IMG/VR virus record: IMGVR_UViG_3300035725_000003
Location: 1-54,529 of that record
Source: a virus
DNA: 54,529 nucleotides
Strand: one strand, 5' to 3'
The first letter of the stretch is position 1. Every line of letters begins with the position of its first letter. The notes beneath the pieces were generated by a model. It saw nothing but the letters and a program-made list of their open reading frames with translations. It was not told the DNA's origin and did not search any database. The translations under genes were made by a program, and so were the position numbers. Positions 251 through 54,529 of the stretch are shown here, one piece after another.

Positions 251-453
251 TCTCCCGTCTCTCCAAACACCTGCAACCGTCTCCCCATCCCCTCGCGGAA
301 TCTCGGTAGGAACGGATAGACACGCTGCGCTGCGTTCAGGTCAGACAGCCCCTGCTCGACCGATGTTGGCGGCCATGCCCGCGCGTAGCGCCATTCCGCG
401 ATCGACAGCGATGTCACGCACCCTGTGACCGCAAGCAGCAAGATGCCCCGCAC
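247..453 (-). CDS. Short putative lipoprotein or membrane-anchored protein
   Basis: A 68-residue protein from a GTG start. It opens with a hydrophobic stretch and a lipobox-like VTGC at about residues 9-12, then a soluble helical part. It overlaps the 3' end of the O-antigen ligase-like gene by 113 nt in another frame. The stop is coupled to the next gene by ATGA. An export signal directly behind a polysaccharide polymerase/ligase suggests joint work at the cell envelope, but this is inference. The start is uncertain; a shorter product is possible. Confidence 0.55.
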   Translation of the reverse strand: MRGILLLAVTGCVTSLSIAEWRYARAWPPTSVEQGLSDLNAAQRVYPFLPRFREGMGRRLQVFGETGE

Positions 454-1465
454 ACAGAGCGACAAGAACCGCGGTCGATGGATCGTGGAAGGGCATGGCG
501 ACGAGGCCGAGGACTCCTGCTCCGGCGAGAACGGCCGCCGCCCAAGATTGAACGTCGCGGCAGAGGCTGAAGCAAAACGCCGTACCGACCAGAGCGGCGG
601 GAATTCCACCTTCGAAGGCGAGCCAAAGGATCTCATTGTGCGGATGCTCCGGCCGGCTTTGCCAATGGTTGAAGTCGTAGGCGTGTGCCGTCTGCAGGAA
701 GACTTCACGGAACGATCCCAGCCCATGGCCGAAGAACGTCAAGTTCGCGATGGTGTCCTGCCACATAGCGAGACGCTCGAGGTCAGACGTTCCGATGCCA
801 TGGATCATCATCCAGGCAGCTACACCAGAGACGGCGACCACCCCGATAAGGAAACGAATCTTGAACGGAGAGAGAACAAACCAGCCCACAACCAGCGCCA
901 GCCAAGCCCCGCGCGATGGTGCCAGGATCAAGGACGGCGCTAGCAGCGGCAGCGTAACCCGCAGTCGGGGAAGAGCCACCACCCCGATTCCGATCAACGC
1001 CGCCGCCGCCGCAAGACGGTCGCGGTTGAAGAACAGCCCTGAGAAGCTGCCATCCATGGTCTGGACGAGATGCCCTCCCGATCCAGCCCACTGCGCGACC
1101 GCCAAGGCGCTGTTGATGCCGATGCCGATCGCGGCGCCGAGGAACAACCCGCTCAAGGTTGGCATGGTCGAACCGACCGCGAAGGCGATGGCGATGATTG
1201 CGATCTGGATCAGTTCATTGATGCCGTCGAGCCGGCCGTCGTCGCCGCCGTCATTCCAGAGCAGCGACAGCGTCAGCCATCCGACCAGAACGAGGCCAAT
1301 CCAATGCGCCGCCGTCATCCGCACGCGCGGGGCGAAGAACAGTGCGACCGCGAGAAGTGCTGCCACGTCCCATCGCGGCGTGGTGGCGACACCGGAGATG
1401 CCGGGCCAATACGCGGTCATCAGTGCGAAGCCGAACAGGCCGGAGAACACATCACTCATCGCCAT
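341..1465 (-). CDS. O-antigen ligase/polymerase-like membrane protein (Wzy_C/WaaL family)
   Basis: A 374-residue integral membrane protein with about ten hydrophobic segments. Near residue 270 it has the family hallmark HPHNEILWLAFEGG, in the large periplasmic loop before the last membrane helices, preceded by GHGLGSF. That layout is typical of Wzy_C (PF04932) proteins, which polymerise O-antigen or join it to lipid A core in the periplasm. Temperate phages use such proteins for serotype conversion, changing the receptor of the lysogen. Here the gene lies in the late operon directly after terL, so it may instead act on the envelope late in infection. Alternative start at 1459. Confidence 0.8.
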   Translation of the reverse strand: MAMSDVFSGLFGFALMTAYWPGISGVATTPRWDVAALLAVALFFAPRVRMTAAHWIGLVLVGWLTLSLLWNDGGDDGRLDGINELIQIAIIAIAFAVGSTMPTLSGLFLGAAIGIGINSALAVAQWAGSGGHLVQTMDGSFSGLFFNRDRLAAAAALIGIGVVALPRLRVTLPLLAPSLILAPSRGAWLALVVGWFVLSPFKIRFLIGVVAVSGVAAWMMIHGIGTSDLERLAMWQDTIANLTFFGHGLGSFREVFLQTAHAYDFNHWQSRPEHPHNEILWLAFEGGIPAALVGTAFCFSLCRDVQSWAAAVLAGAGVLGLVAMPFHDPSTAVLVALCAGHLAACGHRVRDIAVDRGMALRAGMAANIGRAGAV

Positions 1466-1538
1466 AATCGCGCCATTCGTCCGGGTTGTCGGGCTCGTCT
1501 TCGGCTACAGGAACGTAGCCGTCGGCATCTTCAGGCAT
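1452..1538 (-). CDS. Very small acidic protein (28 aa)
   Basis: The ATG overlaps the TerL stop codon (TGATG at 1536-1540), and the frame runs 28 codons into the start of the O-antigen ligase-like gene. Twelve residues are Asp or Glu and only one is Arg. Coupling to terL and the strong acidic bias favour a real peptide over chance. Function unknown; an acidic partner or DNA-mimic role would be a guess. Confidence 0.5.
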   Translation of the reverse strand: MPEDADGYVPVAEDEPDNPDEWRDYGDE

Positions 1539-3181
1539 CACAGCGTTGCCGTTGAATCGTCGTAGCGTTCGTCACGCGCTTCGCGGTAGGCGTCGCGCTT
1601 GACCGGTTCGTCTTTCGGCAGCGACCTGACCCAGGGTCGCGACGAGCAGCCGTAACGAACGTCATCTGCCGCATGGTCTTCCGCGTCGGTGTCGAGATCT
1701 TCCGCCCGCCTAAGATCGTGTTGCAATACCGGGATGGTTCGGATGGAGTCCTTGCAGGTCGAAAAGAAGTAGATCATCGGCCGCCCGGTCGACCAGTTGA
1801 TCGAACCGTCCTCGAGCCGCTGTGCCGTGCCGACCAGCCTGGACCGCACTCCGTCCCAGCCCGCCATTGGGCCCGATTTGTTGTCGCCGACCTGCCGTGT
1901 CACGCGGGAATTGTCGGCCTTGGTGAAACCGGCGAGCTTGGCCTTGAACAGCTCGTCGTTGATGCGCTCTGCGATCGAAGGACCGCCATCTTCAGCGAAC
2001 GCGGCGGGGTCGAGTGCGCCGTAGGTCAGCTTGGCAACGTCGTCCCGCTCGCGGAAGACGATGCCTTTGCCGACTTGCTCGGCCGTCAGCTTTCCGCCGA
2101 CGGCGCCGTACCATTCTCGGTAGCGAACGAGGGAGCCTCTAGGTAAGAATCGATCTCTTGATGGACTTCGTCCAGTGTCGCTTCCGCCACGAACGTTATC
2201 CCTCGATATTCCCCCCTCACCACCGGATATGCCATGGCTAGCTCCTCGGGGGTCAATGTCTCCCAATCCAGTTCGAAGTTGGAAGTCATCTCCGACAACA
2301 GCCCACCATCCGATGCTGAAGGGCGAATAGCTGCCCCAGTCACCAGAGCGGAAGCGCAGCCAATGAGGCGGAATAGCGAACGGCGAGATAACATGCTGCT
2401 CATTGCTCCATTCTGCGAAGAACGCACCCTCGATCGCGGTCCAGTCTCCCTCGAGCCAGGCTTTGACGAGCTGCGCCGAGCCGACCAGATAGAGGCGCGA
2501 TTTGTAGCCGGGATCACTCGAAAGCAGGATCCTGTTGTTTTCCAGCCGCGACGGGATGACGGCGAACTTGTGAACAGATCCGTCCGGAAGCTTGCGGTGA
2601 TAGACCTTCGGATGCAGCGGGAACGGATGCAGTTGGTAGCGCGCTCTGAGCCAGTGCTGGCCGGCGCCGCCGGGGTTGGCCGTCAGGATCAACTGGATCG
2701 GAACGCCGCGACTTGACCGCAGCACGCCGAACAGCCGGTCGATCGGATCCGATGTCGGATATTGCCCGGCTTCCTCGACCCAGGCGTCGGTGACGTTGCG
2801 GCCCTGGTATTCGTTGGCGTCCTGGACCGTCTCCAGATACTTGAACCGGACCTTGCCGCCGTTCGGCATGATCCAGCCCTTGTTCTCGATGTAGCGCCCG
2901 CCGAGCGGGGTGTAGATCTCCTTGGACCGGTCGATCGCATCTTCCGCTGAGGTCGTTGTCCGGCGGAACATGATGGCGTTGAAGGCCGCGCCGTAGCGCT
3001 TTTCCTTCAACGCCCACTTGCCTAGGACTCCGTCAGTCTTGCCACCACCTCGAGCACCGCCGAAGAACACTTCCGGAAACGGACAGCAGCAAAGATCGTC
3101 CTGCGGGCCTTCCTGCGGTGACCATGAGCGGTCGCGATCGTGGCCGACATGTGCGTCGAGGCGGGTAGCTGCGACGTTCAT
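1538..3181 (-). CDS. terL: Terminase large subunit (TerL)
   Basis: A 547-residue DNA-packaging motor. The Walker A motif is GGARGGGKT at 41-49, and the Walker B motif with catalytic Glu is in AWVEEAG at 133-139. An ANPGG coupling segment follows near 169. The C-terminal RNase H-like nuclease domain starts near 278 with the first acidic residue in SGDWGS, and another candidate lies in ALDPAAF. It starts 3 nt after TerS. Odd feature: residues about 301-344 (2150-2281) are a low-complexity Gly/Arg/Ser/Asp-rich stretch with rare codons (AGA, TTA, ATA), placed where I expect only a short linker before LPRGSLVRYREWYG. An alternate frame there reads like an ordinary protein. The rest looks intact. 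Confidence 0.95.
   Translation of the reverse strand: MNVAATRLDAHVGHDRDRSWSPQEGPQDDLCCCPFPEVFFGGARGGGKTDGVLGKWALKEKRYGAAFNAIMFRRTTTSAEDAIDRSKEIYTPLGGRYIENKGWIMPNGGKVRFKYLETVQDANEYQGRNVTDAWVEEAGQYPTSDPIDRLFGVLRSSRGVPIQLILTANPGGAGQHWLRARYQLHPFPLHPKVYHRKLPDGSVHKFAVIPSRLENNRILLSSDPGYKSRLYLVGSAQLVKAWLEGDWTAIEGAFFAEWSNEQHVISPFAIPPHWLRFRSGDWGSYSPFSIGWWAVVGDDFQLRTGLGDIDPRGASHGISGGEGGISRDNVRGGSDTGRSPSRDRFLPRGSLVRYREWYGAVGGKLTAEQVGKGIVFRERDDVAKLTYGALDPAAFAEDGGPSIAERINDELFKAKLAGFTKADNSRVTRQVGDNKSGPMAGWDGVRSRLVGTAQRLEDGSINWSTGRPMIYFFSTCKDSIRTIPVLQHDLRRAEDLDTDAEDHAADDVRYGCSSRPWVRSLPKDEPVKRDAYREARDERYDDSTATL
2150..2281 (-). other. Anomalous segment inside terL with protein-like alternate frame
   Basis: In the terL frame this segment encodes a Gly/Arg/Ser/Asp-rich stretch joining two well-conserved nuclease-domain blocks. 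In the +1 frame (part of an open frame at 2086-2517) it encodes a varied acidic sequence with common codons, including DWETLTPEELAMAYPVV and ATLDEVHQEIDSYLEAP. It could be an inserted fragment, an overlapping gene, or two compensating indels. Confidence 0.5.
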
Positions 3182-4974: not shown

Positions 4975-6132
4975 TCACTTGAAATCCGCAAGATCTTCCT
5001 CTGTGGCGAGGACGTCCGGTGGGCCGGTCGCCGTCAGCGTGCCGTCCTTGCGGGGCGGCCACGGCCAGGGTGCGCGGGAGCCGGCATGGGGACGATGCCG
5101 CAGGAAGCCCGTTGTGAACACGGTCGAAAGTAAATCCTCCCACGAACCACCCTGCCTGTGGTTCAGTTCGACCCAGTCGGCGGATGGTGGTGCATGCGCC
5201 AAGGCCAGCAGTTGCGGCTTCATCGAACAGCGGAAATCGATCGAACCGTCATCACGCCGCCAGATCCGGCGTAGTGCTTCGCTTGCATGGGCAATCTCGC
5301 ATAGCACCGTGATTGCGCGGGCTTCCGCACTGCCAGCGGGATAATTCGTGCTGGATGTTCCGGTCGCGGTTTTCTGTCGCTGCAGCAGCGTCCAGCGCTT
5401 CTGTTCGATGTATTTCCATCCTGCCGGAACGTTCTTGCGGCCCCGTCGTTTCAGGTCATCGAGGAACGGCGCGATTCCAGCCAAGCACGGTTCCTCCTCG
5501 TCCTCGCTCAGGCTTTCAGCCGCATAGGCCGTGCGTTGGCGATCGTCGAGAGCGGCTGTCGGCCATCTCGCCTCAAACGAAACCAAAAACCTTGCTTTCC
5601 GATCCCGCGCGCGCGCATCTCTCTCACGTTCAAGAAGGGGTCGTTCTAAGGGGTCGTTCTTGGTGCCCACGTATGGCTGGGCACCCGTGCCCACGCTAGG
5701 CTGGGCACCCGGGTGCCCAGGAGTGTGATCGTCATCACTGCCCATGGATGGGCAGTCGGGTACATCAGATGCAATTTCCGCATGGCTTTCGGATGCGTCC
5801 GCTTCGTTCTCCTCAATGATTGTATCGATATCAAAATCGTCCCGATCGAGGATCACGCGGTACATGAAGCTGTTGGAGGGCTGGCCCTCCTTGTTGCCCC
5901 ACGGCGGACGTTTCTTTTCGACCCAGCCGGCTCTGACGAGGTTTTCGATGGAGCGTTGCACTGAGGAGCGACCACATTTCAATTGCGCGGCCATCTTGAC
6001 TTGGCTGCGGCGACACCAGCCAGCTTTGTCGGTATAGCAGCCCAGCAGATTCAATACCTGGATGTCGCGCGGTTCGAGCGATCGATCGAAGATGGCGCCG
6101 GCCGGCGTGATGGAAAGGCGGGGATGACTCAA
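4975..6132 (-). CDS. Replication initiator-like protein with winged-helix domain
   Basis: A 385-residue protein. The first 95 residues form a winged helix (DIQVLNLLGCYTD, then RRSQVKMAAQLKCGRSSVQRSI and a basic wing), the HTH_36-type fold of phage and plasmid initiators. A disordered acidic linker (about 100-165) follows; its DNA holds the repeats at 5663-5755. A helical C-terminal part resembles those that recruit a helicase loader. Layout and internal iterons match lambda O, whose gene contains the origin. No phage helicase gene was found, so host replication proteins are presumably recruited. It overlaps the methyltransferase stop by 4 nt (ATGA). Confidence 0.72.
   Translation of the reverse strand: MSHPRLSITPAGAIFDRSLEPRDIQVLNLLGCYTDKAGWCRRSQVKMAAQLKCGRSSVQRSIENLVRAGWVEKKRPPWGNKEGQPSNSFMYRVILDRDDFDIDTIIEENEADASESHAEIASDVPDCPSMGSDDDHTPGHPGAQPSVGTGAQPYVGTKNDPLERPLLERERDARARDRKARFLVSFEARWPTAALDDRQRTAYAAESLSEDEEEPCLAGIAPFLDDLKRRGRKNVPAGWKYIEQKRWTLLQRQKTATGTSSTNYPAGSAEARAITVLCEIAHASEALRRIWRRDDGSIDFRCSMKPQLLALAHAPPSADWVELNHRQGGSWEDLLSTVFTTGFLRHRPHAGSRAPWPWPPRKDGTLTATGPPDVLATEEDLADFK
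5663..5755. repeat. Iteron-like inverted repeats, candidate replication origin
   Basis: Two 22-bp repeats at 5663-5684 and 5687-5708 (period 24) each pair GTGCCCA with TGGGCAC around an 8-bp centre. A half copy GTGCCCAG lies at 5713-5720, and a further palindrome CTGCCCATGGATGGGCAG at 5738-5755. The repeats sit inside the initiator gene and encode GAQP(S/Y)VGT twice in its linker. This is the arrangement of the lambda origin inside gene O. Confidence 0.65.
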
Positions 6133-6851
6133 AATAATGGTTCCTGCTTTGCGGCCTTGGGTGCCTCAACGAACATGTCCGGCGCATCCAGTGCGGCTTG
6201 AATCCGCCGACATGCAATTGAGAAATAACGCTCCTCGATCTCGATACCGATGAACTTGCGGCCGAGCTTGACGGCGGCAACGCCTGTGGTGCCGGAGCCC
6301 ATGAAGGGATCGAGGATGGTTTCGCCGGGAGCACGCTGGCAGAAGTGACGCATAATCTCGACAGGTTTCTCGAATGGATGAAACCGCGCGCCGTCATTAC
6401 GATCTGCAACACAGCCGGCTATGGCATTCACTTGCACTACGCCACTTCCACGCCGCGGCCAATGCCATCCAGCCCCACCGATGAAGACAAATTCAAAGTC
6501 CGGTTTCCACGGCAGTGACAAATCTCCGGCTCCAGTGTGCTCGCCTTTATTCCAAATGACGGCCGCACAAGTATTCGGAGGTCGTGACGTGTTCCACTTT
6601 GCAAACGCTGCGAAGGGAGCAGCAGCGACGTCAAGAGCGTAGTCGCGTGCGGTCGTATCGAGATCGCCAGCAATCCTAACGTCAGCCCACATTCCGCCGT
6701 CGCCCTTAGATCCGCCGCCCATGCCAAGCTTTGCGTTGATCCCATATGGCGGATCAGTCACCACAGCGTCGACCTTGCAGAGCGTCGGCAGAACTTCGCG
6801 ACAATCCGCGTTGTAGAGAATGATGCCCTCGGCCAGCGTCTCAATTCTCAT
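6129..6851 (-). CDS. DNA adenine/N4-cytosine methyltransferase, beta class
   Basis: A 240-residue SAM-dependent DNA methyltransferase. Catalytic motif IV is DPPYGI near residue 33; the SAM-binding FxGxG is DPFMGSGTTG near residue 195. The order (IV, target domain, X, I) makes it beta class, as in CcrM and many phage enzymes. No partner restriction gene is nearby, so it is an orphan, probably protecting phage DNA or marking it for regulation. ATG 6851 is chosen because it overlaps the upstream stop (ATGA). It overlaps the initiator gene by 4 nt. Confidence 0.9.
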   Translation of the reverse strand: MRIETLAEGIILYNADCREVLPTLCKVDAVVTDPPYGINAKLGMGGGSKGDGGMWADVRIAGDLDTTARDYALDVAAAPFAAFAKWNTSRPPNTCAAVIWNKGEHTGAGDLSLPWKPDFEFVFIGGAGWHWPRRGSGVVQVNAIAGCVADRNDGARFHPFEKPVEIMRHFCQRAPGETILDPFMGSGTTGVAAVKLGRKFIGIEIEERYFSIACRRIQAALDAPDMFVEAPKAAKQEPLF

Positions 6852-7039
6852 GTGTCCGCACCCCACCTGCACCTATAAGCCGCCTGACACGACCTCGCCG
6901 CGCAGATGATGGTGTCCTGGTTGCGGCATGGTTTTTCGAAGTGCGGCCCGAAACGGCGCCGCTCGATCGGCACGAGGCGCTGCTGTTCCTCGGTCCGTTC
7001 GATTGGTGGGTTGTCTGGGCTGTGATAGAGGCTTGTCAC
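6848..7039 (-). CDS. Small hypothetical protein
   Basis: A 63-residue protein from a GTG start that overlaps the upstream stop (GTGA at 7036-7039). Its own stop overlaps the methyltransferase ATG. It has a Pro/Glu-rich start, the basic patch IERRRFGPHFEKPCR and three Cys in the second half. Family not recognised. The tight coupling on both sides is the main evidence that it is real. Confidence 0.65.
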   Translation of the reverse strand: MTSLYHSPDNPPIERTEEQQRLVPIERRRFGPHFEKPCRNQDTIICAARSCQAAYRCRWGADT

Positions 7040-10226: not shown

Positions 10227-10459
10227 CGCACCGGCTCCGACGACGGAGAAATCTCCCGCGCATAGGCGTAGCTCTTGGCGCGCGGCCATTTGTCCGAGCG
10301 ATTGAGCGTGATCGCATCCCGGTTGCTGCCGTCCTTGAAAACCTCCACACGCGCCCTCCAGCGGCCTTTCGGGTCGATCCCTTGTCCGTAGTTCTGGCGA
10401 TAGGTTTCGGCCGGACGCGGGGGTTTCGTTTTCTTCTTTGGCTGGTTGGTATTGCTCAT
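10223..10459 (-). CDS. Small basic hypothetical protein
   Basis: A 78-residue protein with a Lys/Pro-rich N-terminus (NQPKKKTKPPRP) and a central GRWRARVEVFKDGSNRDAI. Its stop overlaps the HAD start and its ATG overlaps the MT-A70 stop. It probably binds nucleic acid; family not recognised. Confidence 0.65.
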   Translation of the reverse strand: MSNTNQPKKKTKPPRPAETYRQNYGQGIDPKGRWRARVEVFKDGSNRDAITLNRSDKWPRAKSYAYAREISPSSEPVR

Positions 10460-11976
10460 GCTGCTTCGTCCTCGTTTGAATGGTGCGGAGGCGCGGACTG
10501 TGTCCCTACGTCTGAGCCGGCTGCCCCAACCACGGGCTCCCCCGTCTCGCGTTCGCATAGCGTGCTGGGGGACTCGCGATCCGTACCAGACGCCTCCTCT
10601 CTGGGTATTTCTGAATCAGGCGCTTCGAATCCCCAGCACTCCCATCCCGCACGCGCACGTCGCGCGTTCAACTCGATCTTGGGGAGGTTTGGGAAATAGC
10701 TTTCGATGACCTCATAAACGAGATCGGGTTTTTCAGAATGATCGCCGACCGGTGCCTCGATGAAGCTTGGAAATTGCGTACCTGGGGCGGGCGCCGGCAG
10801 CCGTGCGCCGCGCGTGCCGACCAGCAGCAGTTCATGCTGGTTGCGAAACCAGTAGCCGGTACCGAGACGATCCTTCTTCCAGACGAGGTGAGATTTGTAG
10901 TCGAACCCCCACGCTGCCATGACGCGCAGCGCATCTGACAGCATCGGCACCGTGGCCCACAGGAACAGCGCACAATCGTCGGCCGCGATGTCCTGCACGG
11001 GACGCGCGCAGATAACGTCCGTCTCATTGGTGGGGTAGTGATTGTCGGCAGCGCGATCCATCCCGGTTTCGCGGCTGTAGGGTTCGAAGCGCCATTCGGG
11101 ATCAGCGAGGATCACACCATAACGCTTGTCAGGAAGGGCCTTTTGCTTGACAGAAAGCGCCTGCTCGTTGTCAGAACGCGACTTTTCCTTGACATGCGCT
11201 CGCGCGGCGCTGCCGTGGCCGGATTTGGCTTTCTCCGCGATCTGCCGCTGATCTTCAGCAGGCAAGGTTGCTGCCTTTGCCGCGACACTGACCGCAAGAT
11301 GTCCTTGCTCGACAGCCTCCCGCAATTCAGGAGCAGCGTCACGCTTAACCTTGACCGCGTCAGCGACCGTTCGCGGCGAGACGTTGAGGCGTTCAGCCGC
11401 TTGATTTTGCGCAACCTTTTGCAAATTTGCAGAAGGTTCGATATCGGTTCGCTCACCCTGCCTCATGGTGGCAAGATTGGCCGCGACCATGCTGCGTTGG
11501 CTCTCGTTGAGTTGCCGGCGATGCAGGTTTTTTGATAGTACGAACGCCAGCAGTTCATCATGCGACGGCGGCTCGGTGCCAGGCGGCGAATAAAGCCTAA
11601 AATACTTGATCTGCGGTGCGGTCAGAGCATCAATGCTTTCCGGCAACAGCCCCGCCGCGACACACGCGCGATAGCGGTTTCGTCCGTCTAGAATCTTCTT
11701 ATCGAGAAGCGTGATGGGCTCGCGCAGTCCGTGAGCCCTGATGTCGCGTACCAGGTCGTCAAACTCAGGCCCCTCGATCAGTGGGAAGATGTCGGCCAGA
11801 GGATGAAACGGAATCATTCCGGTGATCTCCAAGCGCTCGGTTGCCACAAACCCAACCGGCGAATTGCACGCCTTGCACGAATAGGCCTTGCCGTCCGGCT
11901 TGCGGCTGTCGCTCTTGAAGTCGTCGAGCGGCTTTGTCTGGCCGCATCGGGAACAGGTTTTGGTCTGTGCGGTCAT
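10456..11976 (-). CDS. ParB-like nuclease/DNA-binding domain fused to MT-A70 methyltransferase
   Basis: A 506-residue, three-part protein. A short zinc finger (CSRCGQTKPLDDF then CKAC) spans residues 8-38. A ParB/Srx domain (FPLIEGPEFDDLVRDI, LDKKILDGRNRYRAC) and its helix-turn-helix (AERLNVSPRTVADAVK) extend to about 260. An MT-A70 domain carries the catalytic tetrad as DPEW near residue 300, then ETGMDRAADNHYP, LFLWATVPML and HSEKPD. The usual DPPW is changed to DPEW. MT-A70 enzymes make N6-methyladenine. ParB fusions in phages are thought to guide methylation to particular sites; target unknown. A long 5' leader holds the second 46-nt element. Confidence 0.9.
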   Translation of the reverse strand: MTAQTKTCSRCGQTKPLDDFKSDSRKPDGKAYSCKACNSPVGFVATERLEITGMIPFHPLADIFPLIEGPEFDDLVRDIRAHGLREPITLLDKKILDGRNRYRACVAAGLLPESIDALTAPQIKYFRLYSPPGTEPPSHDELLAFVLSKNLHRRQLNESQRSMVAANLATMRQGERTDIEPSANLQKVAQNQAAERLNVSPRTVADAVKVKRDAAPELREAVEQGHLAVSVAAKAATLPAEDQRQIAEKAKSGHGSAARAHVKEKSRSDNEQALSVKQKALPDKRYGVILADPEWRFEPYSRETGMDRAADNHYPTNETDVICARPVQDIAADDCALFLWATVPMLSDALRVMAAWGFDYKSHLVWKKDRLGTGYWFRNQHELLLVGTRGARLPAPAPGTQFPSFIEAPVGDHSEKPDLVYEVIESYFPNLPKIELNARRARAGWECWGFEAPDSEIPREEASGTDRESPSTLCERETGEPVVGAAGSDVGTQSAPPHHSNEDEAA

Positions 11977-19119: not shown

Positions 19120-19878
19120 ATGACGAAGCCGCTCGCCATCGACCTTTTTTGCGGCCTCGGTGGCTGGACGGAAGGATTACTTGAAGAGGGTTACGACGTG
19201 ATCGGATTTGACATCAAGCGACATGTGTACGGCGAGCACCGCTATCCTGCGCAGCTCGTAGTGCAAGATGTGCGGACGCTGCACGGTTCGCAGTTTCGCA
19301 ACGCTGCCCTGATCGTCGGCTCAAGCCCATGCCAGGAGTTCAGTTACCGCGCCATGCCGTGGAAACGAGCAAAGGCCTTGGGACCTCCAGTGCTCGGCAT
19401 GGAATTGTTCAATGCACAATTCCGAATCCAGCGCGAGGCGTGCGAAGCAGCAGGTAGGCATATCCCGCTGATCGTCGAGAACGTGCGCGGTGCCCAGCCA
19501 TGGGTAGGGAGAGCTCGCTGGAACTTCGGTAGCTATTATCTTTGGGGTGATGTCCCTGCGCTGATGCCAATTACCCTGAAGGGTACGAAGAACCCAGGCT
19601 TCCGGTTCGATGGGAGTGGACGATCGTTTCAATCGGAAAGTGTCGATAGGCACATCAAAAACGGCGGGGGATCTTGGTTCAAGGTCGCTCACAATACCAC
19701 GAGTGGACATGGTCAGAACCCGGATGGTCGCAACTGGAAACGTGACCCAATGGCCTCTGCTGGATCTGGAAGCAAGAAGCGAGAGCAAGCTGCGGCAATG
19801 ATAGCAAAGATCCCGTTGCCATTGAGCCGGTACATCGCGGCGACGTTCCGGCCGGCCATCGCGGAGGCCGCCGAATGA
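19120..19878 (+). CDS. DNA cytosine-5 methyltransferase-like protein
   Basis: A 252-residue protein. Motif I is AIDLFCGLGGWTEGL (residues 6-20). The catalytic PCQ is in SSPCQEFSYRAMPW near residue 70, and the ENV motif is in LIVENVRGAQPW near 123. The family is normally 300-400 residues; this one has a short target-recognition region, as many phage C5 methyltransferases do. It would add 5-methylcytosine for protection against host restriction. No restriction enzyme is nearby. Confidence 0.85.
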   Translation: MTKPLAIDLFCGLGGWTEGLLEEGYDVIGFDIKRHVYGEHRYPAQLVVQDVRTLHGSQFRNAALIVGSSPCQEFSYRAMPWKRAKALGPPVLGMELFNAQFRIQREACEAAGRHIPLIVENVRGAQPWVGRARWNFGSYYLWGDVPALMPITLKGTKNPGFRFDGSGRSFQSESVDRHIKNGGGSWFKVAHNTTSGHGQNPDGRNWKRDPMASAGSGSKKREQAAAMIAKIPLPLSRYIAATFRPAIAEAAE

Positions 19879-49992: not shown

Positions 49993-52101
49993 TCACGCAA
50001 TCATGAGATATTTTCCCGGACGCCTTGGGTCAGGAATGTAGTGTTTGCCGTCAGGAGCCTGCCTTGCTCCAGGAATTGGCGGCTGCATCTGCTGTTGTTG
50101 CTGCGAACCGCCCGCCAGCGGCGGTGCGCCTTGCCCGCCCTGTTGCGGATTCAAGAACGGCTGAAACACCTTGTGCGCCTCGAACAGCGAATCTCGCACG
50201 AACTCTGCAGCGTCTAGGTGCGATGCACTTGCCAAGTGGCCGGCCCTCGCCGCTTCCGTGGTGACCTTGGCGCGTTTCTCGGCCGCAGTTGCGAGCGCCT
50301 GTTCTGCACTCGCCAGCGTCTTCTGGGTTTCCGCCGCGGTCTTGGCGTTTCGCCCAGCAGCGGTTTCCATCGCAAGCCGCTGCTGTGCCTGCTGCGCCTG
50401 CATCTGCTCGGGCTTCGGTGCGAGCATCTGCAAGATGCGATCCTTTTCCGAGCGCGGCATGTTCGGGTTCATCTCGATCAGGACCTGCGGCGGGATTGTG
50501 CCGGGCGGATAGCCCTTCAGCGTGTCGTAGGTCTCCTGCATCATTGACATGATGTCCGGACCTTCGTCGAGCGCGATATCGACATCAAGTTGTCCGACCG
50601 CATTGACGATCGCGGGCCTGCCCCACTGATCAACATCGAGGCCGTTGATCTGGATGAACTGCGCCAGCTTCTCGTTCGAATTGACCCGGATGAACCGTTC
50701 GGCCGTCCAGTGACGCTGCACCGTGTTCCAGATCTTGCGGTAGAGGTTCAGCTTGAACATCCGGTGCGCCAGCACGAACGGACCTAGCTCGGCCATTCCT
50801 GGCTGTCGCAGCAATTCCAGCGCGCGGGCGGAAAGGTTGGTTAGGCCAACGCCAGACATCGCCGCTATGTTCGAATTGGCATATCCGTCGAGCTCGGCCT
50901 TGGCATCGTCGGTGAACGCGGAAAAGGTCGCGATGTCGGGGTGGGTGTCGATAACCTTGAATTCCTTGTTCGGATTCTTTTCGAGATACCCGTCGTGCCG
51001 CGCGACCTCGCGCCGCGCCGCCTCGACGTCGTCAACCGCGCCCTTCTCGGCTTCGATCCGCCGCGAGTTCGCCAGTGCCAGCGTCTTGCTCTTGCCCTGG
51101 TTGAGCGCGTCCTGCGGTCCCTTGAACGTTCGCACGAACGAATAGCGGTCGCCGTCCTGATCGATTGCGGCGCAGAACATCTCGAATGACGAGGTACTCT
51201 CGCCGGTCTCATCGAAGTATGGCGAGATGCCCTGCTCGAGAAGCACGTTCGCGACATAGAACGCCCAGCACCATTTGCCGCGATTCTTGTACCAGTGCTC
51301 AACCATGCGGATACGCTTGGACGAGGAAATGAACCACTTGATATCCCGGTCGGGATTCGTGGTCATGTCGCTGTCGCCGGCAAACAGTCCTTCAAGCTCC
51401 TCGCGTTTGGACGGGAAGATCTCGACCGCGGCCTCGATGTCCATCCACTTCGCGATGCCTTCGAAGCGGACATCCTTGAAGTCGAAACGATAGGAGCGCG
51501 GATCGTAGAAATATTCGTCGCCGATCACCCAATGAACGCCGACGTCCGGATCGCCCTTGTCACCCTTCTTGAGCACCAGTTGCACGCCGCCGATGCCGTC
51601 AATGGCGGTCTGCAGCAGGCACCAGTAGTTCGTCGAGTTCTTGAACTGGCTTCCATCCAGAACGCTGCGGACGGACTCAGTCGCAACCTGGGCGCCAGCC
51701 TCGCTCTTGGGATTCTTGCCTTCCGCCTTCGGATCGCAGCGCATTCGCTCGACCAGGCCAACGATGCCGTTGATCTTGCGTCCGACCCGGTTCCAGATCT
51801 GCACCGGCTGATGGCGGGCCTTCAGGACGCGAAGCTGATCTGCCGTCAGTTGCGCGCCGTGGTAGTAGCGCCGGGAGTCTTTCTGCTCCTCGATCTCCTC
51901 ATCCTTGCTGAAGAGATAGTCCAGATATTGGGAGCGCAGCACACCGACTGAAAGGAACTGCTCTCCATCGTCGTCATCGAGGTTGCGGTCACGCTTGTCT
52001 TCGGACGGATTGTTGTCGTTCCTCGCACCCACGAGCGGCATCAGCCGCGCCGCATCGGCGCGCTGCATCTGCTCGATCATGGACTGCTGGACGGGAGGCA
52101 T
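49993..52101 (-). CDS. Portal protein, P22-like
   Basis: A 702-residue protein. DSRRYYHGAQLTADQLRVLK and QPVQIWNRVGRKINGIVG near residue 75-115 begin the P22-type portal core. Later TNLSARALELLRQPGMAELG and IWNTVQRHWTAERFIRV belong to the clip/stem region. The C-terminal helical barrel-like part is Gln/Ala-rich (QAQQAQQRLAMETAAGR) and ends in a Pro/Gln tail. It forms the twelve-fold DNA gate of the head. Confidence 0.92.
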   Translation of the reverse strand: MPPVQQSMIEQMQRADAARLMPLVGARNDNNPSEDKRDRNLDDDDGEQFLSVGVLRSQYLDYLFSKDEEIEEQKDSRRYYHGAQLTADQLRVLKARHQPVQIWNRVGRKINGIVGLVERMRCDPKAEGKNPKSEAGAQVATESVRSVLDGSQFKNSTNYWCLLQTAIDGIGGVQLVLKKGDKGDPDVGVHWVIGDEYFYDPRSYRFDFKDVRFEGIAKWMDIEAAVEIFPSKREELEGLFAGDSDMTTNPDRDIKWFISSSKRIRMVEHWYKNRGKWCWAFYVANVLLEQGISPYFDETGESTSSFEMFCAAIDQDGDRYSFVRTFKGPQDALNQGKSKTLALANSRRIEAEKGAVDDVEAARREVARHDGYLEKNPNKEFKVIDTHPDIATFSAFTDDAKAELDGYANSNIAAMSGVGLTNLSARALELLRQPGMAELGPFVLAHRMFKLNLYRKIWNTVQRHWTAERFIRVNSNEKLAQFIQINGLDVDQWGRPAIVNAVGQLDVDIALDEGPDIMSMMQETYDTLKGYPPGTIPPQVLIEMNPNMPRSEKDRILQMLAPKPEQMQAQQAQQRLAMETAAGRNAKTAAETQKTLASAEQALATAAEKRAKVTTEAARAGHLASASHLDAAEFVRDSLFEAHKVFQPFLNPQQGGQGAPPLAGGSQQQQQMQPPIPGARQAPDGKHYIPDPRRPGKYLMIA

Positions 52102-52412
52102 CAGGCGATCGGGGTCATCTTATCAAGATTGGCCGCTTCCTCCCTGTCGGAAGGCTGATGCCTGTTCCCGAGCTTCGCCATCTGCTTTTCCGAGATCAGG
52201 CCGCGCTTTGCGAGTTCAGACGCACGATGCGATTCCGCCTGCTTTTCCTTCGCATGCTCCGCTGCCTGCTTGCGGACGTGCTTCATCAGGCCCTTGTTCT
52301 TGAGGTGTTCGCCCGCGCGCAGGATCGTGTGCATCGCGTCGCGGACTTCCCAACGGTCGTATTTCTTGGGCTTTCCCGCCGTTGACTTTTCCATGCCGAT
52401 TCCTTCTGCCAT
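52101..52412 (-). CDS. Small basic protein with ISEKQ motif
   Basis: A 103-residue, Lys-rich helical protein. Near residue 70 KRGLISEKQMAKL matches the ends of the ATP-grasp protein (KGRISEKQFEKLM) and of the 54135 protein (KQGLISEKAAKRHL). The stop overlaps the portal ATG. A shared motif in three neighbouring proteins suggests a common partner, perhaps portal or terminase. Confidence 0.7.
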   Translation of the reverse strand: MAEGIGMEKSTAGKPKKYDRWEVRDAMHTILRAGEHLKNKGLMKHVRKQAAEHAKEKQAESHRASELAKRGLISEKQMAKLGNRHQPSDREEAANLDKMTPIA

Positions 52413-52415
52413 AAG

Positions 52416-53753
52416 TCACCCCTTCGCCATCAGCTTTTCGAACTGCTTCTCCGAAATCCGCCCCTTGGCGCGCAGTTCCTCGGCCTTCACTTCCGTCTTC
52501 GACTTCGGCTTGTCGGGACCGAGTACCTTGTCGAGCTGCTCGCGGGCGACATCGAGCGCGTCGACCGGCTTGTCGAGCAAATGCCCTTCGACCAGCTTGC
52601 AGATCCGCTTGCATTCCTCGATGGCCTGATCTGGCGTATCACCGAGCGCAACGACCGCACCAATCTCGGCGCATCCGGTCCATTGCGGAATGACGTAGTA
52701 TTCGCCCTCGATCTGGCAGAAGTTTCGCAGCTTGACGTTCTCGCGCACATCTTCCGGGAACGAGACGTGCATCCAGTTCTTGTCGGCCCAGTCCGATATC
52801 AGGAGCACTTCGGCACCCCACTTCGCCTTGAACTCCGGCTCGATCACGATGCCTTCGGAGCCATACCAGATGGCCTCGGCGAGGTTCGTCATCATGACCT
52901 GATAGAGTTCGTTCGGAGGTGAGCCGGCGCGGCAGCACGGATCGATCAGGTAGCCCTTGCCGCCGGGCGTGACGCGGACCTCGGTCGAGATGAAGCCGCG
53001 GTAGCCATATTGTTTCAGTGCGGGCGAGAGCTTCTCGTTGACGCTGCGGACCTTCTCCGGCAGTTCCGACCATCGCACGGTCTTCAGTAGGTAGGCTTCG
53101 TCCTTGACCTCGACCCCAGTCATGGCGGACTTCGGAAACTTGCCGTCGATCGTGAAGCCATCGTATCCGGTTTCAACCGCGTCGTTGATACCTTCCTCGA
53201 CGGTGAACTTGATCACCTTCTTGAGCGCCCCAAGATTGTGCTCAAGTTCGTCGAGCCGTGGTTCTACATGCTCATAGGTCTTGGCGCCGAAGGTCTCCAT
53301 GTCGCCACGGGTGCCTGAGATCTTCACCCACTGGTCGTCATTGGCCTTGAGGTGCTTGCGCAGCGCGTCGAGCCCCGTGATCACCTTGTACGGGCCGATA
53401 TCGATCCCGAGCTTCTTGGACTTTTCCTTGGATGCTGGCCGGTCGATCTCCAGTTCGCAGCCGCCGCGACAGCCCCAGACACGCTTGCCTTGGGATACCA
53501 GCCAGTTTTGCAGGTCGCCCTCGTACACGTCGGGGAAGATCCAGATATCGATTTCGTCGTAGTGCGACCAAGGTGAAGCGACACGCTCGACGCCCTCGAT
53601 GCCTTCACCGATCATCAGCGCGTTTGACTTCGGCATCCCGGACGTCCACGGGACGTAGTAGAGCACGCGGCCGAAGGATTTGGAGAGCGTCACGGCGATC
53701 TCGGTAAAGACGCCGTTGTCCATGACAATTGCAGTTTTCGAGCGGAGGTTCAT
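52416..53753 (-). CDS. ATP-grasp enzyme (GARS/carboxylate-amine ligase-like)
   Basis: A 445-residue protein. A Rossmann-like N-terminus (KTAIVMDNGVFTEIA) leads to the nucleotide-binding part (SKEKSKKLGIDIGPYKVI, then DQWVKISGTRGDMETFG), and the metal/substrate block FISTEVRVTPGGKGYLIDP with CCRAGSPPNELYQ. That is the ATP-grasp layout, nearest to GARS/PurD-type. ATP-grasp enzymes join a carboxylate to an amine through an acyl-phosphate. Substrate unknown. The ATG overlaps the SpeD-like stop (ATGA), and the C-terminus carries an ISEKQ motif shared with two neighbours. A metabolic ligase beside portal is unusual. Confidence 0.8.
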   Translation of the reverse strand: MNLRSKTAIVMDNGVFTEIAVTLSKSFGRVLYYVPWTSGMPKSNALMIGEGIEGVERVASPWSHYDEIDIWIFPDVYEGDLQNWLVSQGKRVWGCRGGCELEIDRPASKEKSKKLGIDIGPYKVITGLDALRKHLKANDDQWVKISGTRGDMETFGAKTYEHVEPRLDELEHNLGALKKVIKFTVEEGINDAVETGYDGFTIDGKFPKSAMTGVEVKDEAYLLKTVRWSELPEKVRSVNEKLSPALKQYGYRGFISTEVRVTPGGKGYLIDPCCRAGSPPNELYQVMMTNLAEAIWYGSEGIVIEPEFKAKWGAEVLLISDWADKNWMHVSFPEDVRENVKLRNFCQIEGEYYVIPQWTGCAEIGAVVALGDTPDQAIEECKRICKLVEGHLLDKPVDALDVAREQLDKVLGPDKPKSKTEVKAEELRAKGRISEKQFEKLMAKG

Positions 53754-54145
53754 TTCAGCGTCAACTCCGCGTAAAACTGCCGTCCTTCGCCGTGCTCCAC
53801 CGACATATCAAACCCACGCGCCGTGCGGTCGACAATAAACTGATCGAACGGCTTGCACGAGCAGATGAAGAGGTACGCGCCACGATGGTCTGGCCAGGTA
53901 TCTAGGGCGAGGAATGAGTCAGTTATGGGCAACACAACAGTTCGGCCATTGCCGCCCTTGCCGTGCAACGGATAGGTCCAGAGAGCGTGATCTCCGACTG
54001 CGGTCATGCCGATCGCGGCCGTCAGCGCATGCAGGAATTTGACCAAACGATCCGCGCCGATGTCCTGCTCTGATCGAAGCGTCACGCCAAAGGCGTGCAT
54101 GCGTTCCCCGAGACGGATTTCGCCACACCTCACCTCAGTATCCAC
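53750..54145 (-). CDS. AdoMet decarboxylase (SpeD)-like protein
   Basis: A 131-residue protein that fits the small bacterial SpeD fold: HAFGVTLRSEQDIGADRLVKFL, GNGRTVVLPITDSFLALDTWP, then YLFICSCKPFD. In SpeD the corresponding block is ESHxSxHTWP, where Ser becomes the pyruvoyl cofactor; here it reads DSFLALDTWP, keeping Ser and TWP but losing both His, while Cys in ICSC may match the catalytic Cys. It may be a decarboxylase with changed specificity or an inactive relative. Coupled to the ATP-grasp gene. Start GTG 54145; ATG 54100 possible. Confidence 0.65.
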   Translation of the reverse strand: MDTEVRCGEIRLGERMHAFGVTLRSEQDIGADRLVKFLHALTAAIGMTAVGDHALWTYPLHGKGGNGRTVVLPITDSFLALDTWPDHRGAYLFICSCKPFDQFIVDRTARGFDMSVEHGEGRQFYAELTLK

Positions 54146-54422
54146 CTAGGTGCCGTTTGGCGGCCTTCTCCGATATCAATCCTTGCTTCATCGCGCGCTT
54201 GGCTTTCTTCCGCACATGCTGCGGCAGCTTCTTGACCTTCTGTCCGTGGCTTTCGGCAACGAACTTCTTGCCGACCTTCTCAGGGATTCCAATCGTCGAC
54301 TCGCCTTCCGCGGCGGCATGCATTGCGGCGTTCTGCGCCTTGGATTCCATTGGCATTTCGCGCTCCGTCTTCCCGGAAAACGAGACTGATTTGTTGTTCG
54401 GGGCGGTCGTGGTTTCAGCCAT
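54135..54422 (-). CDS. Small basic protein with ISEK motif
   Basis: A 95-residue protein. A Ser/Thr-rich acidic start and a Lys-rich end: VKKLPQHVRKKAKRAMKQGL, then ISEKAAKRHLGGY. ATG 54422 overlaps the stop of the 20-250 gene across the circular join (position 54422 equals position 20). Shares the ISEK motif with 52101 and 52416. Possible DNA or portal contact. Confidence 0.75.
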   Translation of the reverse strand: MAETTTAPNNKSVSFSGKTEREMPMESKAQNAAMHAAAEGESTIGIPEKVGKKFVAESHGQKVKKLPQHVRKKAKRAMKQGLISEKAAKRHLGGY

Positions 54423-54529
54423 TACCATTCCATTCTTTCGACCGCTTTCCGAATCTCCCGCTTGATCCGGCGACGGTCGGCATTGGGGTAAAGGCTAATA
54501 ACTTCTACTTGCGCGAGGTATTCCGCGCG
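54403..54529. repeat. Right copy of 127-bp terminal redundancy
   Basis: Identical to 1-127. See the left copy; joins the window into a circle of about 54,402 bp. Confidence 0.93.

Follow-up and report, generated by a model that had tools for sequence, protein, structure and literature searches.

A SpeD-family gene overlapping a PurD-like ATP-grasp ligase gene in a phage virion gene block: a candidate cassette for amine synthesis and amine ligation

The stretch of DNA analyzed here (the window) is a virus contig of 54,529 nucleotides. Read along the minus strand, it encodes in succession a small basic protein, a SpeD-family protein, an ATP-grasp ligase, a second small protein, and a P22-like portal protein. 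The relevant features are:

341..1465, minus strand: Wzy_C/O-antigen-ligase-like protein, between the terminase and the pair (PF04932, E = 9.6e-6, under the curated cut-off)
1538..3181, minus strand: terminase large subunit (TerL), upstream of the pair once the circle is closed (PF04466, 26.4 bits; phrog_979, E = 3.4e-24)
49993..52101, minus strand: P22-like portal protein (PF16510, E = 4.6e-73; phrog_156, E = 5e-82)
52101..52412, minus strand: small protein of 103 aa with the motif SELAKRGLISEKQMAKLGNRH, a conserved gene downstream of the ligase
52416..53753, minus strand: PurD-like ATP-grasp ligase of 445 aa (core, residues ~1-412; C-terminal two-helix tail, residues ~413-445)
52419..52517, minus strand: ligase C-terminal tail (about DKPKSKTEVKAEELRAKGRISEKQFEKLMAKG), with a motif common to both flanking small proteins
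53750..53753, minus strand: 4-nt ATGA stop/start overlap between SpeD (ending CTG AAA TGA) and the ligase (starting ATG AAC)
53750..54145, minus strand: SpeD-family (AdoMet decarboxylase-like) pyruvoyl enzyme of 131 aa, type A (PF02675, AF2 model), with putative pyruvoyl Ser77, Cys97, and Asp82 where the processing His would stand
54135..54428, minus strand: small basic protein of 97 aa with the C-terminal motif AKRAMKQGLISEKAAKRHLGGY, upstream of SpeD and overlapping it by 11 nt
54403..54529, no strand: 127-bp direct end repeat, identical to 1-127, indicating a circularly closing record

The end repeat probably closes the record into a circle and marks it as a complete circularly closing genome of ~54.4 kb. 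TerL lies at the opposite end of the linear window from the SpeD/ligase pair, and closure brings the pair to between TerL and the portal gene, where the original prediction, made without database searches, had placed it. The unbroken order TerL-(Wzy)-small protein-SpeD-ligase-small protein-portal-...-capsid recurred in several relatives. Homologues of the Wzy_C-like protein are optional neighbors, present in the terminase-portal interval of several relatives and missing in others. Relatives of the 97-aa small basic protein occur in most terminase-portal loci. Profile matches also identified an integrase gene along with genes for head closure and a major head protein; this gene content suggests a temperate phage whose portal is P22-like. 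The window further carries three DNA methyltransferase-like genes (10456-11976, 6129-6872, and 19120-19878), the types represented being MT-A70 with a ParB-like part, N6_N4, and C5; the proteome was scanned in part, and start codons were chosen mechanically.

The assignment of the upstream gene of the pair to the SpeD family was borne out by sequence and by predicted structure. The protein scores 25.3 bits against PF02675 (cut-off, 25), which places it within the superfamily, and 43 of 44 relatives match the same family. A SpeD profile finds solved AdoMet decarboxylases in the PDB at E = 1.1e-7, and the AF2 model (pLDDT, 92.4) has the Thermotoga maritima AdoMet decarboxylase entries 1vr7 and 1tlu as its top fold matches. 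The equivalog model TIGR03330 (cut-off, 75.65 bits) gave no match for the window protein and 38 to 45 bits for a second SpeD type, type B, considered below. The GTG start used here was a mechanical choice, and the first ~10 residues are uncertain since homologues mostly start near LGxRM.

In an alignment of 44 SpeD homologues, G67, S77, and C97 are the sole invariant residues, with S77 and C97 aligning with Ser63 (the pyruvoyl residue) and Cys83, respectively, of the T. maritima enzyme. It had been proposed that the pyruvoyl-forming Ser and the TWP motif were kept and that both His residues were lost, and this description is accurate: the window protein retains the Ser in ITDS77 as well as TWP, with Phe in place of T. 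maritima His64 and Asp in place of His68. The T. maritima SpeD reference sequence used for this residue alignment, and for a count of phage records with SpeD (149), agrees with the PDB alignment in its central region. In type A, the main type, the hydroxyl residue at position 55 is usually Thr, residue 68 is usually Asp, and a glycine-rich KGGxG insertion precedes the cleavage site. The protein resembles class 1b SpeD (PF02675, TIGR03330; T. maritima 1VR7/1TLU) in fold, length, pyruvoyl Ser63, Cys83, a hydroxyl residue at 55, and the TWP(D) motif, but type A differs from that class by Asp for His68, the KGGxG insertion, and the lack of a TIGR03330 match, and the partner in the window is an ATP-grasp ligase rather than a spermidine synthase. 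According to PMC10407285, Ser63, His68, and Cys83 are essential for self-processing of the T. maritima enzyme, and their retention is expected in all SpeD groups; in the window protein this triad is incomplete, Ser and Cys being kept and His68 being Asp. As type A is without His68, for which Asp may or may not substitute, it could be slow or inactive. AdoMet could fit as the type A substrate, judging from the retained Trp and acidic residue of the TWPE motif.

Type B SpeDs occupy the same slot upstream of the ligase in several loci (L015-L017, L019, L043, L052, and L056). Most members keep Ser55, Ser63, His68, and Cys83, and they have Gln66, Thr69 or Thr71, Phe75, and Tyr81 in the pattern ESGIQIHT...F...Y.C. 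PMC10407285 gives Gln, Thr, Phe, and Tyr in the central region as diagnostic of the pyruvoyl ornithine decarboxylase SpeDC, and type B apparently carries this signature, the residues fitting in order when matched by residue names, not positions. The original prediction had noted that SpeD homologues can act on other amino acids, and this is established for phages: SpeD homologues that decarboxylate ornithine or arginine have been demonstrated (PMC9992855; see also PMC10407285), so AdoMet need not be the substrate here. The proteins at these loci resemble SpeDC and SpeDA, the phage and bacterial pyruvoyl ornithine and arginine decarboxylases, as SpeD-derived phage enzymes with putatively changed specificity, and type B relatives have the apparent SpeDC signature; however, the window type A protein does not fit the SpeDC residues and is without His68, and an ATP-grasp partner is absent from the main text of both PMC9992855 and PMC10407285.

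The ATP-grasp identity proposed for the downstream gene was likewise recovered by profile and fold searches, although no curated family matches: the ligase has no Pfam, PHROG, or NCBIfam match of its own. Among PDB sequences, a profile of 62 ligase relatives matches PurD (E = 2.4e-5), and the AF2 model (pLDDT, 94.6) has GAR synthetases as top PDB matches (E = 8.6e-20). Matches to the model at E <= 0.001 numbered 604, and among the 50 matches listed all are ATP-grasp enzymes. Across 79 ligases, with or without SpeD, K109, K144, E194, E258, D271, and R275 are invariant, and E186 is nearly so (one Asp). The ATP-grasp set of two ATP-binding Lys, a hinge Glu, acidic Mg ligands, and an Arg is therefore present as K109, K144, E186, E258, D271, and R275, roles that we take from the PurD alignment and general knowledge. 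PurD (GAR synthetase) is the closest solved fold (TM, ~0.6 to 0.7) and the closest profile and shares the active-site residues, but identity to the ligase is 13 to 17%, the Mg-binding/Arg motif reads DPCxR in the ligase versus E(F/Y)N(C/V)R in PurD chains, and ligases of the virion-operon lineage have an additional C-terminal tail. Against TIGR00877 (PurD; cut-off, 288 bits), the window ligase gave no match and its relatives scored 17 to 24 bits (maximum, 23.5), far under the cut-off. The phage ATP-grasp amidoligases or peptide ligases of the R2K family in jumbo phages (PMC7824862) are alike in being phage borne and proposed makers of amide bonds; by description they are unlike the window ligase, which is nearest to the PurD profile, is paired with SpeD, and has no PHROG match. 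As a side observation, the active-site motif of the ligase in one relative (L022:1-1836) is precisely where an apparent intein splits the protein (LIDP / CFADD...FWSSN / CCRAGSPP), a conserved catalytic motif being a typical site of intein insertion.

The tail of the ligase comprises ~30 residues in two predicted helices and contains (K/A)GxISxKQ or a close form in the terminase-portal lineage. It is missing from ligases outside this lineage and from L088, in which a portal gene is present in a different gene order; tail presence was judged on C-terminal sequences, and four tailed loci are contigs without a portal gene on the available stretch. The motif K..(R/K)GxISxKA/Q ends consecutive proteins of the virion operon, L049 having as many as five such products in succession (L049:5354-8127), and we suggest that the motif perhaps lets these proteins dock to one shared assembly partner. 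The SHOCT domain was considered as a name for the tail and dropped, as the likeness is by eye and Pfam recognized neither the ligase tail nor the C termini of the two small proteins at E values up to 10. The C-terminal Tyr of protein P0004 was likewise considered as an acceptor for the ligase, in the manner of a carrier protein and its ligase; this idea is weakened because relatives do not conserve the Tyr and because other contexts lack P0004.

Translational coupling of the two genes had been claimed from the ATGA sequence, and the overlap of 4 nt, its coordinates, and its strand proved correct. Such 4-nt overlaps (with ATG, GTG, or TTG starts) occur in 21 of 62 nonredundant pairs and 1-nt overlaps in a further 5. 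Some 157 ligase relatives were found in IMG/VR, whose contigs are redundant and often fragments, so that counts refer to loci and not to independent events; three more occur in genomes of species, one of which is Bradyrhizobium sp. YR681, and no relatives turned up among 50,697 INPHARED phage records when the window SpeD and three ligases served as tblastn queries. The linked pair is carried among virion genes by many uncultured phages of the soil type. Where enough upstream DNA was available, SpeD lies within 1.7 kb upstream of the ligase in 56 of 76 nonredundant loci, leaving 20 without SpeD nearby. No SpeD was found in 19 ligase records searched whole, several of which are fragments; 5 other records served as a positive control. 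In the reverse search from type A, almost all loci with sufficient DNA had the ligase immediately after SpeD (L134 and L136 being exceptions). The search from type B also yields orphan SpeDs without a ligase, and L142-L150 are SpeD relatives that lack the ligase. Outside the terminase-portal lineage, the pair adjoins genes for a terminase (L077), a tail protein (L066), or a baseplate (L020). The placement between terminase and portal holds for the window and several relatives but not for these other loci, and confinement of the linkage to the terminase-portal site was ruled out.

The two genes also show signs of joint inheritance. Pairwise divergences of SpeD and ligase are correlated (r = 0.70, in part through shared ancestry of the phages), a value reached in 0 of 2,000 permutations. 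Mapped on the ligase tree, the A and B types of SpeD require at least three changes, a figure to be taken as a guide since the tree was quickly built and some of its forks are weak. Both genes are under purifying selection (dN/dS, ~0.1 to 0.3), and this, together with their conservation, rules out chance open reading frames or an artefact. Ligases that lack SpeD tend to fall on long branches of the tree (L073, L083, L084, L090, L092, L061, and L063), which suggests changed constraint after SpeD loss. In eight loci (L006, L069, L072, L075, L076, L077, L133, and L137) a third small gene, encoding 110 to 160 aa with a HELIE/HALIE-type motif, lies beside or between SpeD and ligase; its product is possibly metalloprotease-like, and no such gene was found in the window.

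From these patterns it is likely that SpeD and the ligase act in one pathway. The original prediction of a shared pathway fares well in that the pair is conserved, co-inherited, and found in a region of virion genes, and less well in that the ligase also occurs in records in which no SpeD was detected. The reading that we favor, with about even confidence, is that the pair forms one functional unit, an amine-synthesis and amine-ligation cassette of the virion gene block. Its operation can be pictured as follows: (i) SpeD would cleave itself at Ser77, generating the pyruvoyl cofactor; (ii) the mature enzyme would decarboxylate a small substrate of the amino acid type, with ornithine and arginine as the most probable candidates and AdoMet as a possible one, to a primary amine; (iii) the PurD-like ligase would use ATP to convert a carboxylate to an acyl phosphate and join it, as an amide, to the amine made by SpeD; and (iv) at loci where no SpeD was found the host would supply the amine, as would suit a common polyamine. 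The persistence of the ligase without SpeD and the likeness of type B to ornithine decarboxylase both point to such a common, host-suppliable polyamine. A more specific version is rather doubtful, namely, that the ligase docks by its C-terminal motif at the assembling procapsid or portal and couples the polyamine made by SpeD to the capsid, the portal, an internal protein, or another carboxylate. In that version the particle would bear positive charge fixed to it by covalent bonds; that the attached amine neutralizes the charge of packaged DNA, as was originally proposed, is speculation. A pathway for hypermodified DNA was considered and set aside, since methyltransferase-like genes alone, and no base-modification set, were noticed in the scanned part of the window proteome.

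Neighboring phage genes need not be related in function, and one of the two main alternatives to a joint cassette is that two separate auxiliary enzymes are involved, SpeD raising host polyamines and the ATP-grasp enzyme making an unrelated amide, with the two genes adjacent because both are late-expressed cargo. Phage polyamine enzymes are indeed common auxiliary genes (PMC9992855), as the 149 phage SpeD records illustrate, and each partner can be found without the other; on the other hand, nearly all type A SpeDs directly precede one ligase family, in one order and often overlapping it, and a type B SpeD fills the same slot, so that we regard this alternative as unlikely, if the strongest of those considered. 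A variant of it, which casts the ligase as a GAR synthetase of the phage that boosts purine synthesis while SpeD separately boosts polyamines, would account for PurD being the nearest solved fold and sequence profile, yet it is hard to credit given TIGR00877 scores of at most 23.5 bits versus 288, the low identity of the structural match, and the lack of any other purine gene in the scanned parts of the window.

Two further alternatives keep the enzymes together and change either the target or the order of the reactions. The Wzy_C-like gene in the same interval suggests the second main alternative, a cell-surface target: the pair would place an amine or amide on capsule, O-antigen, or a precursor, with involvement of the Wzy_C-like neighbor, and so alter receptors or block superinfection. 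Surface alteration by temperate phages is common, and both the integrase and the position of the Wzy_C-like protein between terminase and pair, in the window and several relatives, would agree with it, but the Pfam score of this protein is under the curated cut-off and many loci (e.g., L001, L003, and L009), like the other contexts, have no Wzy next to the pair; we regard a surface role as unlikely. Alternatively, the ligase could act first on an amino acid to give an amide or peptide, a conjugate that SpeD would then decarboxylate. The same gene data are compatible with this reversed order, as is the unusual active site of type A, with its Asp for His68 and its KGGxG insertion; however, type B SpeDs look like ordinary decarboxylases of small amino acids, and loss of SpeD would leave the product unfinished in 20 loci, and we therefore consider the reversed order improbable.

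Phage SpeD homologues with changed substrates (PMC9992855) and phage ATP-grasp enzymes (PMC7824862) are each already known; the pair, the ligase family, and SpeDs with His68 changed to Asp had no description in the literature searched, the coverage of which excluded most subscription journals. SpeD in phages is usually read as a booster of host polyamines, and here it is tied to an uncatalogued ATP-grasp ligase in a virion block, of a family that has no name in Pfam, PHROGs, or NCBIfam. That tie, held across differing structural neighbors, points to attachment of an amine to something during infection, and the Asp-for-His SpeD subfamily offers a test of pyruvoyl enzyme maturation. The occurrence of the ligase family in Bradyrhizobium and in many environmental records means that it could be approached experimentally.

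Two phages show other SpeD arrangements. In Moorella phage MTATph1 (L154; OR602862.1), an annotated SpeD gene has a gene with a major head protein annotation on either side. This is an independent instance of SpeD amid head genes, and neither direct neighbor is an ATP-grasp gene. Microcystis phage MaAM05 (L152) has two SpeD homologues and speE in succession, an arrangement resembling bacterial clusters in which one SpeD acts on another substrate.
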